Both the position numbers and the translations under genes were made by a program. A stretch of 64,000 nt of DNA from Sphingomonas tagetis (GTDB lineage Bacteria; Pseudomonadota; Alphaproteobacteria; Sphingomonadales; Sphingomonadaceae): contig NZ_JAMLDX010000001.1 of the NCBI RefSeq assembly GCF_024211275.1, positions 372,001-436,000 on the forward strand, given 5' to 3'. Each line of letters starts with the position of its first letter. The stretch's first letter is position 1. The notes under the pieces were generated by a model, which saw only the letters and a program-made list of their open reading frames with translations, was not told the DNA's origin and did not search any database. Of the stretch, positions 1,505 to 5,380 are shown piece by piece.

Positions 1505-2881
1505 TCAGCGCGCGCGCTTGCTCCAGTTGACCGCCTTGTCGCCCGCAGCGGTGCGCACGAAGCACTTGCCGCCGCTCGAGCGAACCTTGTTGCAAAGCGC
1601 GTTGGCATCGGCGCGGCTGAGACCGCCGACCGCGAGGCGCTCGAACGCGCCCGCGTCGGTCTTGATGCTCGCGCTCGACGGCGTCATGCCGCTCAGCGCC
1701 GGGATGCGCTTGACCGCGCGGCCCCACGCATCGCGGGCAACGCCGCTGCTGTCATAGGCGCCGAGCTGGACCGCCCATTCGCCCTTGGCCTGGGCGAACT
1801 TCACGACCGGCTGAGTCTTGAGCACGCGGACCGCGCCGGTCGAAGCCTTGGCCTCGACAACCGGCTTCACCACCGCAGCGCGCTTGGCCAGCATTACAGG
1901 AACGGGCACCGTCTGGATGATTTCCTTGCGCTCGCCGAACACGATCTGCGAACCGCTGGGTGCGGTGATCGCGGGCGCGATCTCGACCTTGGCGACACTG
2001 CCGACTTCAGCGGGCGCGGACGCCGGAGCCGCAGCCGCAGCCGCAGCCGCCGTCTCGGCAACCGCCGGACCGGGCATGTAGGTGTCGACCGGATCGGCGA
2101 CCTGCTGCGCCGCCACCGCGACCGACATCGAGCGTGCGAGCGCGAGCTGCTCGGGCTGGCCCTTGTCCGCGACCGGCGTCACGTTGAGCAGCGCCGCGAT
2201 CTGGTCATAGGCGTTCTGCGGGCGCGAGAAGGTCGCCCACTGCATGATGCGCGCGTCGACCTGATCGGGCGGCAGATCGACCGCGGCAACCGCCTTGGCT
2301 TGCTGCCACTGACCCGCCAGCGCCAGGCTGAGCGCGAGATTCTGACGCGTCTTGGCGTCGGCGCCGGGCTGACGCGCGGCATCGCTGAGCAGCGCGACCG
2401 CCGTGCCGGGATCGCCTGCGAGGGCGAAGGCCAGGCCGCGGTCGCTCACCGGGATCGACGCGGCATGCGTTTCGAGCGTCTGGCGCGCGGTGGTCCACTC
2501 GCCGGTCGCGACCTGCGCCAGCGCGAGGTTGAGCGCCGTGCGGCCGTTCGCCGGATCGAGCGAGAGCGCCTCGTTCAGCGCCTGCGCCGCCGAGATGAAG
2601 CGGCCGGTGAACAGATAGGTCTCGCCGAGCAGCTTGCGATATTCGCCATTCTTGGGATCGAGGCTCACCGCCGTCTCGGCCTGAGTCACGGCGAGCTGGC
2701 CATTGCCCTTCTTGAGCGCCTTGCGCGCTGCCTGGGCGAACTTGGCCGCCTTCTTGGCATCGACGGTCTCGGTCTTGCCGCTGGCGACGGCGAAGCCACC
2801 GACCAGCGCGGTACCACCGACCAGCGGCGCCCCCAGCACCAGCACCGAGGCTGCGATCTTCAACATGCGAGCTGCGTTCAT
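1505..2881 (-). CDS. Exported TPR- and SPOR-domain protein
   Basis: A 458-residue protein. The first ~35 residues form a hydrophobic signal or anchor segment after MNAARMLKIAA. Tetratricopeptide-like helices run from about 40 to 240 (for example AETAVSLDPKNGEYRKLLGE and LNEALSLDPANGRTALNLAL). A linker rich in Ala and Pro follows, including a run of Ala. The C-terminus is a SPOR domain from about 375 (GEWAVQLGAYDSSGVARDAW). SPOR domains bind glycan strands stripped of stem peptides and often localise to the division septum. It starts 18 bases after the stop of the RHH gene and is the last gene of the parA-RHH-SPOR cluster. The periplasmic septal role is inferred from the domain, not demonstrated. 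Confidence 0.85.
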   Translation of the reverse strand: MNAARMLKIAASVLVLGAPLVGGTALVGGFAVASGKTETVDAKKAAKFAQAARKALKKGNGQLAVTQAETAVSLDPKNGEYRKLLGETYLFTGRFISAAQALNEALSLDPANGRTALNLALAQVATGEWTTARQTLETHAASIPVSDRGLAFALAGDPGTAVALLSDAARQPGADAKTRQNLALSLALAGQWQQAKAVAAVDLPPDQVDARIMQWATFSRPQNAYDQIAALLNVTPVADKGQPEQLALARSMSVAVAAQQVADPVDTYMPGPAVAETAAAAAAAAPASAPAEVGSVAKVEIAPAITAPSGSQIVFGERKEIIQTVPVPVMLAKRAAVVKPVVEAKASTGAVRVLKTQPVVKFAQAKGEWAVQLGAYDSSGVARDAWGRAVKRIPALSGMTPSSASIKTDAGAFERLAVGGLSRADANALCNKVRSSGGKCFVRTAAGDKAVNWSKRAR

Positions 2882-2899: not shown

Positions 2900-3481
2900 T
2901 CAACGAGCCTTGCCGGCCGGCAGCTGGCTCGCCAGCGCACCGACTTCGGGCAGAGTTTCGAGAAACGCGTCGAGCGCCTCGGTAACGAGCAACTGCGACG
3001 AACGGCCGGAAAGGGCCGAGGCGAGCCGCAGCTTGAGGTGACGATCGTGGTCGAGCCGCAGCGTAAACGCCGCCTTACCCTTCTTCGCCGAGACTTCGCG
3101 GTCGATGCGCGCGGCGGTCGCGGTCGAGACCGGACGTGAGGCGGGCGCTTCGGGTGCGGGTTCGGGTGCAGGCGCCGGCACCATCACCGGCTCGGGTACC
3201 TGTGCGACGTCCACGACGGGCGCGACCGGAGCCGCGAATTCCTCGGCCAGCGCCTGGCGCTGCTGCAGCACCGGCGGGGCGGTTTCGGGCAGCGGCGCTT
3301 CATGCACGCCGAATTCATGCGCCCCATGATCCTGGCCCATATCGTTCCAGCCGAGATCGTCGAGCGAGGTGCCGGGGTTCAGCCCGACAAAGCCCTGCGG
3401 CCGCATTGCCGGACGCGCCTGACCCTTGCGCGCGAGCAGGCCCGAAGAGAGCGAGGCGGCGGGCTTGAGGTTGCCGAACAT
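2900..3481 (-). CDS. Ribbon-helix-helix partner of the orphan ParA
   Basis: A 193-residue protein whose ATG overlaps the parA stop by one base (TGATG). This overlap fixes the start at 3481, although the open frame runs further upstream. Residues 1-130 are low complexity, with a Pro/Ala/Glu/Val-rich stretch at 84-118 that looks disordered. Residues 137-176 (KAAFTLRLDHDRHLK... then LLVTEALDAFLE) have the strand-helix-helix pattern of a ribbon-helix-helix DNA-binding domain. Small RHH proteins act as centromere-binding partners of ParA in type Ib plasmid partition systems, so this may be the DNA-binding or adaptor half of a ParA pair. The RHH call is from pattern alone and needs a profile search. 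Confidence 0.65.
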   Translation of the reverse strand: MFGNLKPAASLSSGLLARKGQARPAMRPQGFVGLNPGTSLDDLGWNDMGQDHGAHEFGVHEAPLPETAPPVLQQRQALAEEFAAPVAPVVDVAQVPEPVMVPAPAPEPAPEAPASRPVSTATAARIDREVSAKKGKAAFTLRLDHDRHLKLRLASALSGRSSQLLVTEALDAFLETLPEVGALASQLPAGKAR

Positions 3482-4194
3482 CAGCTCACCACCCGGCGGC
3501 CAAAGCCACCCTGCGGACGTGCTGAATAGACGACCTGCGCCGCGGCGGGCGCCGTGAACACGGTGCGGCGGAAATTCTTTTCGAGACGGTCGTTGATATA
3601 GGCCCACAGCGCCGTGACCTCACCGGCCGACTTGCCGTTGGGGTCGATCTCCATGACGGTGCGGCCATCGATCATCGACGAAGCGAAGTCGGTGCGCTGG
3701 TGCAAGGTGATCGGCGCGACCGTGCCGTGCTGCGACAGTGCGACCGCGGCCTCGCTGGTGATCTTGGCCTTGGGCGTCGCGGCGTTGACGACGAAGAGGA
3801 GCGGCTTGCCGGCGCGGTCGCACAGATCGACCGTGGCGCCGACCGCACGCAGATCGTGCGGCGACGGACGCGTCGGGATGACGATCAACTCGGCGACCTG
3901 GATCACGCTCTGGATCGCCATGGTGATGGCGGGGGGCGTGTCGATCACGGCAAGGCGGAAGCCCTGTTGGCGCAGCACCTCGAGATCGGCGGCGAGCCGC
4001 GCGACCGTGGTCTGGGCAAAAGCCGGGAATTCGGTCTGGCGTTCGTTCCACCAGTCCGAGAGCGACCCCTGCGGGTCGATATCGATCAACACGACCGGCC
4101 CGGCGCCCGCGCGCTGCGCTTGCACCGCCAGGTGCCCGCTCAGCGTGGTCTTTCCCGAACCACCCTTTTGTGATGCCATCGCTAGTACGCGCAT
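3481..4194 (-). CDS. ParA-family ATPase (orphan, chromosomal)
   Basis: A 237-residue deviant Walker-type ATPase. The P-loop KGGSGKTT is at residues 10-17, with the signature Lys10. VVLIDIDPQGSLSDWW carries the switch I region and LAVIDTPP the Walker B. The short length without an N-terminal helix-turn-helix matches small ParA/MinD-type proteins (type Ib) rather than the usual chromosomal ParA. No ParB, gidA/gidB or canonical par locus is nearby; the partner appears to be the overlapping RHH protein. Such ATPases position DNA, proteins or polar structures by dynamic nucleoid or membrane binding. The actual cargo here is unknown. Confidence 0.85.
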   Translation of the reverse strand: MRVLAMASQKGGSGKTTLSGHLAVQAQRAGAGPVVLIDIDPQGSLSDWWNERQTEFPAFAQTTVARLAADLEVLRQQGFRLAVIDTPPAITMAIQSVIQVAELIVIPTRPSPHDLRAVGATVDLCDRAGKPLLFVVNAATPKAKITSEAAVALSQHGTVAPITLHQRTDFASSMIDGRTVMEIDPNGKSAGEVTALWAYINDRLEKNFRRTVFTAPAAAQVVYSARPQGGFGRRVVS

Positions 4195-4375
4195 CGACCC
4201 CTCTAAAAATCCCGGTATCCCAATGATGAAATTGCCAGCCGGAGCCTAAGAAGCGGTTAACGGCGCAGCAGCCGCGGCGTTTTGACGTCACCGATATGGG
4301 TAGGCTTAACGTTGCGGTAACACTGACTTGGCCAGCCTGTGGATAACTGGCATGATCACAGTGCTTTGACCGGGG
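4195..4375. promoter_or_regulatory. Divergent control region between parA and the Sel1/SPOR gene
   Basis: This 181-base gap must hold promoters for both sides. Visible sites are: the palindrome TGACGTCA (4283-4290); TTAA-N7-GTAA at 4306-4320, one base off the CtrA consensus TTAA-N7-TTAA; and TGTGGATAA at 4338-4346, which is a perfect DnaA box (TTATCCACA) on the minus strand. Single matches of this kind can occur by chance. Finding them together beside a ParA/SPOR cluster in a genome that also has DivL makes cell-cycle control plausible but unproven. Confidence 0.4.
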
Positions 4376-5380
4376 ATGGGCGGAATGAGGAATTTGGGTG
4401 CGGTCGTGTTGCTGGCCGGCATCGGATTGGCGAGCCTGCCGGCGCTGGCCGATGTGAAGGGCGGCGTCGAGGCGTGGCAGCGCGGCGACTATAAGAAAGC
4501 CATCGCCGAATGGCGCGGCCCGGCCGTCGCCGGCGATCCCGACGCGCAATTCAATCTGGGGCAGGCCTACAAGCTCGGGCGCGGCGTGCCCGCCGATCTG
4601 GCACAGGCCGAACAATGGTACCGCAAGGCCGCATTGCAGGGCCATCCGCAGGCCGAGGAGAATTACGGCCTCGTCCTGTTCGAGAACAACAAGCGGATGC
4701 AGGCGGCCGAATGGCTGCAACGCGCCGCCGCGCGCGGCGAACCGCGCTCGCAATATGTGCTGGGCACGATGTACTTCAACGGCGACGGGGTCGAGAAGGA
4801 CTGGGTGCGCGCCTACGCGCTGACCGTCCGCGCCAGCGCGCAAGGCCTGCCGCAAGCATCGACCGCGCAGGCGCAGATGGACCGCTACATCACGCTGGCC
4901 GATCGCCAGAAGGGGCTGGAGCTCGCGCGCAACTACGAACGCGATGCCGGACGCCCGCTGGTTGCCGCCGCACCGCCGCCGCCGCGCAAGGGCGGCCCGA
5001 TCGTCAAGACCGATCTACCGCCCTCGACCGTCGCGCAGCGCCCGATTCCGGTCGAGCCTGAGTCCGAGCCGCAAGTCGCCGAAACGCGCCCGGCACCGCC
5101 GATCGTCCGCCCCGCGCCGCGCCAGACGCCGCGCCCGGCGCCCGTGCAGGCCGAAGCACCGGTTCGCGACGGCGGCTGGCGCGTCCAGATCGGCGCATTC
5201 GGCGACCCCGCCAATGCGCGCAAAGCGGGCGGTCAGGCCGCAGGCCGCTTCCCGGGGCGCAAGGTGTTCTTCGAAAAGGCGGGCAAGCTCACCAAGGTGC
5301 TGGTCGGCCCGTTCGGGTCGAGTGCGGAGGCGACGCGCGCGTGTGGCGCGTTCAGGCCGTGCGTGCCGGTGAAGGACTGA
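4376..5380 (+). CDS. Sel1-repeat and SPOR-domain protein
   Basis: A 334-residue exported protein. The signal peptide runs to about residue 25 (cleavage near LPALA-DV). If translation begins at the second Met (4385), which has GGA a few bases upstream, the protein is three residues shorter. Residues 35-175 hold Sel1-like repeats (for example AQFNLGQAYKLGRGVPADLA and SQYVLGTMYFNGDGVEKDW). A Pro-rich linker follows, then a C-terminal SPOR domain from about 260 (WRVQIGAFGDPANARKAG). It is transcribed away from the ParA cluster, whose last gene is also a SPOR protein, so both sides of the intergenic region encode likely septal peptidoglycan-binding proteins. Confidence 0.85.
   Translation: MGGMRNLGAVVLLAGIGLASLPALADVKGGVEAWQRGDYKKAIAEWRGPAVAGDPDAQFNLGQAYKLGRGVPADLAQAEQWYRKAALQGHPQAEENYGLVLFENNKRMQAAEWLQRAAARGEPRSQYVLGTMYFNGDGVEKDWVRAYALTVRASAQGLPQASTAQAQMDRYITLADRQKGLELARNYERDAGRPLVAAAPPPPRKGGPIVKTDLPPSTVAQRPIPVEPESEPQVAETRPAPPIVRPAPRQTPRPAPVQAEAPVRDGGWRVQIGAFGDPANARKAGGQAAGRFPGRKVFFEKAGKLTKVLVGPFGSSAEATRACGAFRPCVPVKD

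Follow-up and report, generated by a model that had tools for sequence, protein, structure and literature searches.

Few systems are known that link the chromosome to the site of division, MipZ, Noc and FtsK among them, and MipZ works with ParB. On plasmids, small ParA ATPases paired with ribbon-helix-helix (RHH) proteins make up the type Ib partition systems, exemplified by ParF/ParG of TP228. In the passages devoted to them in two publications (PMC10241942, PMC12204374), the partners of ParA/MinD ATPases are described as acting through a charged, disordered N-terminus. The pair analyzed here, a small ParA ATPase and an RHH protein, is encoded by Sphingomonas tagetis (assembly GCF_024211275.1, contig NZ_JAMLDX010000001.1, positions 372,001 to 436,000); "the window" denotes this whole stretch of 64,000 nucleotides. 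The pair lies among genes for SPOR-domain proteins, and an initial annotation, made from the sequence alone, had proposed that it could position DNA, a division component or a polar structure. We propose, with a probability of roughly 0.58, that it is a chromosomally fixed positioning pair derived from a small-plasmid, ParF/ParG-like cassette, whose adaptors carry exchangeable cargo ends and whose likeliest work is at the division site.

In this proposal, ATP-bound ParA would dimerise and coat the nucleoid, and the adaptor, whose disordered N-terminus carries ASLxxxLLARKGxAxP, would use this stretch to bind the ParA dimer and so stimulate ATP hydrolysis. The remainder of the adaptor would name the cargo: in the window's lineage a DNA site, held by the RHH domain, and in sister lineages septal peptidoglycan, reached by a membrane span and a SPOR domain. 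As the window's pair stands in line with a tetratricopeptide repeat (TPR)/SPOR gene and beside a divergent Sel1/SPOR gene, its likeliest work would be to set where a stretch of chromosome, or the adaptor itself, lies with respect to the site of division. The anatomy of the proteins, the RHH domain, the motif, the gene linkage, the exchange for SPOR and the plasmid kin are read from sequence; from them we infer the mechanism as a whole, including the tie to division.

The pair and the proposed cargo ends of its adaptors

The window's ParA carries the deviant Walker A motif KGGSGKTT (in the context SQKGGSGKTT) and is classified by Pfam as a ParA-type P-loop ATPase. Its closest solved structures in a sequence search are ParF and TP228 ParA, the top seven Foldseek matches to its model are ParF or TP228 ParA folds, and it aligns with ParF from residue 1, without an N-terminal helix-turn-helix (HTH). 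Against the NCBIfam model NF041546 (ParA_partition) it scores 166.7 bits, below the cut-off of 180, as do three plasmid relatives (158.5-162.8 bits). The final 21 residues form a tail that the model leaves disordered, at a predicted local distance difference test score (pLDDT) below 50. A MipZ identity was considered and rejected: PF09140 (MipZ) matches at 29.2 bits, which passes the Pfam cut-off of 20.7, over residues 3-53 only, and the genome holds a separate MipZ gene (L268) whose product scores 369.9 bits over its length. Nor does this ParA match the VirC1 models over their full length, with 27.4 bits to PF07015 over residues 1-123, barely above the cut-off of 24, and 28.6 bits to the NCBIfam VirC1 model, for which the cut-off is 313. 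The same genome encodes a separate long ParA (L266), distinct from that of the window, and a further ParA-like ATPase of 244 residues (L267, G000:C57), likewise unlike it.

Profile search, which the initial annotation had proposed as a check of its RHH assignment, and a model of the adaptor monomer both support this fold. Taken alone, the window's RHH protein matches no Pfam family, its sole NCBIfam match (E-value 0.98) is meaningless, and even at a lax limit of E 1 it matches none of Antitox_RHH, RHH_10 and ParG. A profile of 27 orthologues searched against the solved structures of the PDB, in turn, finds the RHH proteins 56B (1.5e-4), omega (0.007) and ParG (0.035), and at the same lax limit 15, 13 and 3 of these 27 orthologues match Antitox_RHH, RHH_10 and ParG, respectively. 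The model places helices at residues 145-158 and 162-175 (mean pLDDT per ten residues 93-98 over residues 141-180); no strand is formed in the monomer, since a single chain cannot make the ribbon. Foldseek returned no match below E 0.001 for the adaptor model, and 11 of the 18 matches listed are what we take to be RHH proteins. Judged from these sequence and model data, the C-terminus of the partner is an RHH domain.

At the other end of the adaptor, residues L11, L15, R18, K19, G20 and A22 are invariant in all 27 orthologues, and the motif LxxxLLARKGxAxP marks the entire adaptor family, the linker being variable while the motif is fixed. Beyond the window's family, the RHH protein is 23-41% and ParA 58-75% identical to that of the window. 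In the alignment of orthologues and in the model, the window's adaptor fits the pattern of a charged, disordered N-terminus; this anatomy is as expected of a ParA adaptor, in which the N-terminus would contact the ATPase and the remainder hold the cargo, and the motif is hence a candidate for binding ParA or stimulating its ATPase. Two further features distinguish the lineages. The linker pattern LGW[ND] (DDLGWNDMG in the window) occurs in 65 of 71 close-lineage partners, a count that leaves out the SPOR-type row L126, and in none of 42 other RHH partners; it might bind an additional protein. Beyond the window's family, RHH adaptors end in CxC (e.g., HCDCL) in 30 of 42 cases, among them those of L043-L049, L051, L053 and L058-L060, and none does so in the close lineage; a metal or redox site is possible there.

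The exchange of the presumed cargo end is visible across 147 ParA loci, in which 143 distinct ParA sequences occur because four pairs of loci encode the same one. By the regular expression used to define the motif, 126 of the loci have a motif-bearing partner downstream, and our own RHH and SPOR profiles type 113 of these partners as RHH, 10 as SPOR and 3 as neither. The 21 loci that this expression leaves over include L190 and L169, described below. At L050, L122, L131, L133, L141, L161 and L226, the partner is of RHH type but its motif is a variant or was misread, whereas L056, L057, L179 and L183 keep ParA with no adjoining RHH gene. The contig ends within L142 and L236, the locus L146 is broken, and the distant or plasmid rows L145, L147, L148, L153 and L154 make up the rest. 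In the SPOR-type loci, which belong to several other alphaproteobacteria, the protein encoded directly downstream of ParA has the same motif (that of L138 starts MSKKPAPLTSDLLVRKGDATPSS), a linker, one hydrophobic span and a C-terminal SPOR domain. The span is found in every one of these ten partners, and none of the RHH group exceeds 1.64 on a 19-residue hydrophobicity scale; Pfam confirms SPOR in all five SPOR-type partners scanned. Named holders, among the best 80 of 299 relatives kept in a search for related loci, include a Parvibaculum metagenome-assembled genome (L163); a Kiloniellales one (L190), also named, encodes a motif-bearing membrane protein, and our SPOR profile matches within its locus. 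In L169 (Kiloniellaceae), the partner starts with the motif (LLVPKGAAIP) and ends in another domain, neither RHH nor SPOR, which is perhaps a third kind of cargo end. All 71 close-lineage ParAs have an FGRR-like tail, as do 35 of the 49 other ParAs of RHH type, but none of the 11 ParAs of SPOR type does; the tail thus behaves as if linked with an RHH partner, and it persists in all four ParAs that have no adjoining RHH gene.

By their sequences, the SPOR-type partners are a natural fusion tying this ParA family to peptidoglycan binding, and the septal idea gains support because these adaptors carry the same N-terminal motif as the RHH proteins. The SPOR-type ParAs nest inside the RHH-type family in trees of 108 (thinned set) and 67 rows (chosen set). 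In the larger tree, the SPOR rows form one group with a support of 67; the smaller one needs, as drawn, three changes for the SPOR type, and none of 200 bootstrap trees groups the SPOR rows, a single origin not being rejected in the approximately unbiased test (p-AU 0.36). A bolder version of the proposal, to which we give somewhat less than even odds, would be that the ParA system reaches across the envelope to connect the nucleoid with septal peptidoglycan. On one or a few occasions, the DNA-binding adaptor of a plasmid partition ATPase would have been converted into a SPOR protein that spans the membrane, so that the ATPase would sense the division wall; in the window's lineage, related work would be done by separate RHH and SPOR proteins of one gene cluster.

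Plasmid kin, SPOR neighbors and rival readings

A search of 72,556 plasmid records gave 47 with a ParA match at 1e-50, four of them above 60% identity (best 65.0%). Seven plasmid stretches were examined. In six, a small annotated open reading frame follows ParA immediately, and in the seventh (L277) an unannotated frame does; the partner of L276, for example, starts MAKTASLTSGLVAKKGQAMPA, with the same motif. Our RHH profile matches five of the six annotated partners below 0.01 and that of L280 at 0.061, E-values that hold for a search of seven sequences in which the L277 entry is a wrong frame. In the family tree, the plasmid rows split off basally, a placement that is moderately supported (83/75, where L279, L280 and L145 part from the rest). 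As the nearest relatives outside alphaproteobacterial chromosomes are thus motif-plus-RHH pairs of small plasmids, the chromosomal pair looks plasmid-derived; a plasmid cassette turned chromosomal would be the simplest history, the reverse being also possible. A phage origin was considered and discarded: 26 phage records match at 1e-10, all below 60% identity, and at 38% or less among the 10 matches listed.

On chromosomes, the ParA orthologue is present in 46 of 61 genomes (E 6.7e-63 or better, 64-100% identity), and the next-best matches, at 9.4e-40 or weaker, leave a wide gap to paralogues. ParA matches reach 1e-80 or better in 39 and 1e-40 in 53 of 289 genomes sampled from the class, and in a sample of the phylum 16 of 299 genomes match at 1e-50, all in the window's class. 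The pair hence looks fixed in part of the Alphaproteobacteria. The survey of gene linkage among relatives found the four-gene order described in the initial annotation in 19 of 20 loci from five families; the outer neighbors pyrC, serB, miaA and ilvB, which give the window's locus its chromosomal setting, were found beside the four genes only within the genus. SPOR genes accompany 28 of the order's 31 loci, and the fetched stretch of each of the 61 loci from named Sphingomonadales has one as well. These are raw counts from related, non-independent loci, and they rely on our own iterated SPOR profile; the Pfam scans covered five adaptors and both SPOR proteins of the window.

Several observations weigh against our reading. 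Outside this order, 28 of 36 loci of the class have no SPOR gene by our profile, so that SPOR neighbors of RHH-type pairs characterize this order together with its close relatives. No protein of the window's lineage combines the motif with SPOR, and the SPOR proteins would be exported while the ParA/RHH pair would be cytoplasmic. Simple word counts found no centromere-like repeat upstream of the window's ParA. Four loci (L056, L057, L179 and L183) keep ParA with no adjoining RHH gene, and an RHH search elsewhere in their genomes gave nothing better than E 0.08. Finally, Sel1/SPOR is undetected in six ParA holders (G009, G016, G020, G029, G031 and G036), and among 37 genomes of the genus there are 9 in which ParA is missing: in eight of these the whole cassette is lacking and TPR/SPOR directly adjoins Sel1/SPOR, and the ninth (G004) shows only a Sel1/SPOR fragment at a contig edge. 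The link to SPOR genes claimed in the initial annotation therefore holds as a neighborhood kept across the order and does not extend to a dependence, since eight genomes retain both SPOR genes but no pair, and some ParA holders show no Sel1/SPOR. That the SPOR genes are retained counts against any obligate machine of ParA and SPOR proteins in the genus, where, to judge from these genomes, the SPOR genes are independent of the cassette. ParA and RHH, by contrast, are missing together while the SPOR genes remain, which argues that these two form the working unit. In one such stretch (L258), the first 17 ParA residues (MRVLAFASQKGGSGKTK) run in frame into TPR/SPOR sequence, a junction that reads as a deletion scar; the remnant went unreported by tblastn at 1e-5. 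The same stretch bears a short tandem repeat of GGTCGGAC upstream of Sel1/SPOR.

These losses bear on the best-placed alternative, which we nevertheless judge unlikely: that a domesticated partition cassette still only segregates DNA, its RHH protein binding a chromosomal centromere-like site and the SPOR genes being mere old neighbors. It is favored by the RHH domain itself, by the survival of SPOR genes without the pair and by the plasmid kin, which have a replication gene near ParA in four of the seven stretches (L274, L275, L276 and L279). However, it leaves the SPOR-domain adaptors aside, and it accords poorly with loci L051, L053 and L054, in which the genes stay together with SPOR neighbors despite a rearranged order. 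TACGTA palindromes, moreover, stand upstream of ParA in four of the seven plasmid stretches, whereas simple word counts in the 200 bases upstream of the window's ParA gave no TACGTA and one GTTAAC.

RHH proteins are often repressors, and it might be argued that the one studied here mainly serves to regulate transcription of the SPOR operon, while ParA governs the activity or location of this regulator. A conserved element upstream of the locus would fit this view. Of the 77 rows assigned to the close lineage (L126, a misgrouped SPOR-type row, included), 53 have the pattern TTAA-N7-TTA[AG] within 150 bases upstream of ParA, against a mean of 0.32 and a maximum of 2 after shuffling; elsewhere it occurs at 3 of 52 loci of RHH type and at none of the 10 of SPOR type. 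Yet the element persists at L056, L179 and L183, which have no adjoining RHH gene, and so does not track the RHH protein; with TTAAC or GTTAA words also remaining in 7 of 8 cassette-less genomes, a role as RHH operator was rejected, and the regulator reading appears distinctly less probable than pure DNA segregation. The element resembles the CtrA consensus TTAA-N7-TTAA, as given in a passage of PMC9437464, and is taken as a candidate CtrA-like promoter element of the locus. A CtrA regulon did not emerge from the 4.68 Mb genome, where TTAAC-N6-TTAG occurs twice against four times for a backward control.

That the pair is a functionless relic of an integrated plasmid is very improbable: its absence from nine genomes of the genus, one with a decayed remnant, would agree with it, but ParA is 64-93% identical in 45 other genomes with mostly intact frames, and P-loop and motif residues are invariant. 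It is just as hard to credit that the pair positions a polar or envelope structure other than the septum, with the SPOR proteins as merely co-expressed envelope factors, for although ParA/MinD relatives place many cargos (as set out in part of PMC10241942) and the conserved DLGWNDMG stretch could hold one more, no such cargo gene was seen in the examined loci, in which not every neighbor is annotated.

If our preferred reading of a positioning pair with exchangeable cargo ends is true, this family would represent a ParA route from the nucleoid to septal peptidoglycan, and a plasmid partition cassette would have become a cell-biological device by changing the cargo end of its adaptor only. The short N-terminal motif would then be a handle for finding the partners of orphan ParAs, and with the SPOR-type adaptors the idea lends itself to direct testing in a genus that can be cultured, Parvibaculum for instance.

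Layout of the locus

The coordinates and sequence of the window agree with the initial description of a small ParA whose gene overlaps that of its partner: the ATG of the RHH gene and the stop of ParA share one base (TGATG). The same is true of the neighbors, with matching Pfam domains. The TPR/SPOR gene starts 18 bases past the RHH stop, thus outside the interval 2900-5380 to which the initial annotation referred, and its product is probably exported, given its hydrophobic N-terminus; Sel1/SPOR is divergent from the row of ParA, RHH and TPR/SPOR genes.

Table 1. Features of the ParA/adaptor locus, with positions counted from the first letter of the window.
Feature	Position	Strand	Remarks
ParA ATPase, 237 residues	3481-4194	-	P-loop KGGSGKTT at 4144-4167; disordered C-terminal tail with FGRR at 3493-3504
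RHH adaptor protein, 193 residues	2900-3481	-	Orthologues in 38 of 61 genomes (single-sequence search)
N-terminal motif ASLSSGLLARKGQARP, adaptor residues 9-24, putative ParA-docking stretch	3410-3457	-	Invariant residues; SPOR-type and plasmid partners alike
DDLGWNDMG, adaptor residues 41-49, conserved linker motif	3335-3361	-	LGW[ND] pattern counts
Ribbon-helix-helix domain, adaptor residues 136-176	2954-3076	-	Profile, Pfam, model, Foldseek
TPR/SPOR protein, 458 residues, predicted exported	1505-2881	-	SPOR domain 1550-1786; Pfam TPR_19 5.2e-14, SPOR 6.5e-6
Sel1/SPOR protein, 334 residues	4376-5380	+	SPOR domain 5171-5353; Pfam Sel1 1.4e-18, SPOR 2.7e-14
Upstream element TTAACCGCTTCTTAG, candidate CtrA-like (TTAA-N7-TTA[AG])	4246-4260	-	66 bases before the ParA start; conserved

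Comparison with described systems

Among the titles and abstract openings of open-licence papers, which are weak evidence of absence, no paper on a ParA/RHH/SPOR system was found, and the main text of a Novosphingobium gene-fitness study (PMC10725011) contains no mention of ParA, SPOR, chromosome partitioning or tetratricopeptide. The earlier statement that no named system has this exact make-up thus stands as far as this literature goes; the make-up is not without kin, however, because small plasmids carry pairs of the same motif and RHH domain. Those of pZM22-2 (Comamonas), PLAsvaD, pTunz3 and pXcmN belong to the same ParA family (57-65% identity) and have partners with the motif and an RHH domain, but these partners count only 84-114 residues and lie on plasmids, and no SPOR neighbors are listed in the seven plasmid stretches.

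With its ParF-like ATPase and a partner recognized by RHH profiles, the locus has proved to be the chromosomal, type Ib-like pair that the initial annotation had seen in it. It shares with ParF/ParG of TP228 a small ATPase of the same fold, devoid of an N-terminal HTH, and a downstream RHH partner, ParG itself being among the profile matches of the window's adaptor family. It differs in being chromosomal and vertically kept, in its identity of about 25% to ParF, in the N-terminal motif of its adaptor, in its adjoining SPOR genes and in that simple word counts showed no centromere repeats. McdA/McdB of the carboxysome likewise combines a ParA-type ATPase with a partner that acts, according to part of PMC12204374, via its N-terminal 20 residues; cargo and partner are unrelated there, and McdA is a distant match to the window's ParA.

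The distinction from MipZ and from the standard ParABS system, also drawn at the outset, is upheld. MipZ is similarly a ParA/MinD ATPase tied to division in alphaproteobacteria, but it has its own gene in this genome and its family matches the window's ParA only in part. Chromosomal ParABS relies on an HTH/CTPase ParB, whereas the window's ParA adjoins an RHH partner; the long ParA of this genome is a separate protein. FtsN-like SPOR proteins (e.g., RgsS), finally, share the SPOR domain and a place in division or polar growth; to our knowledge, no ParA-docking motif is known in them, whereas the SPOR adaptors of this ParA family start with a putative one.

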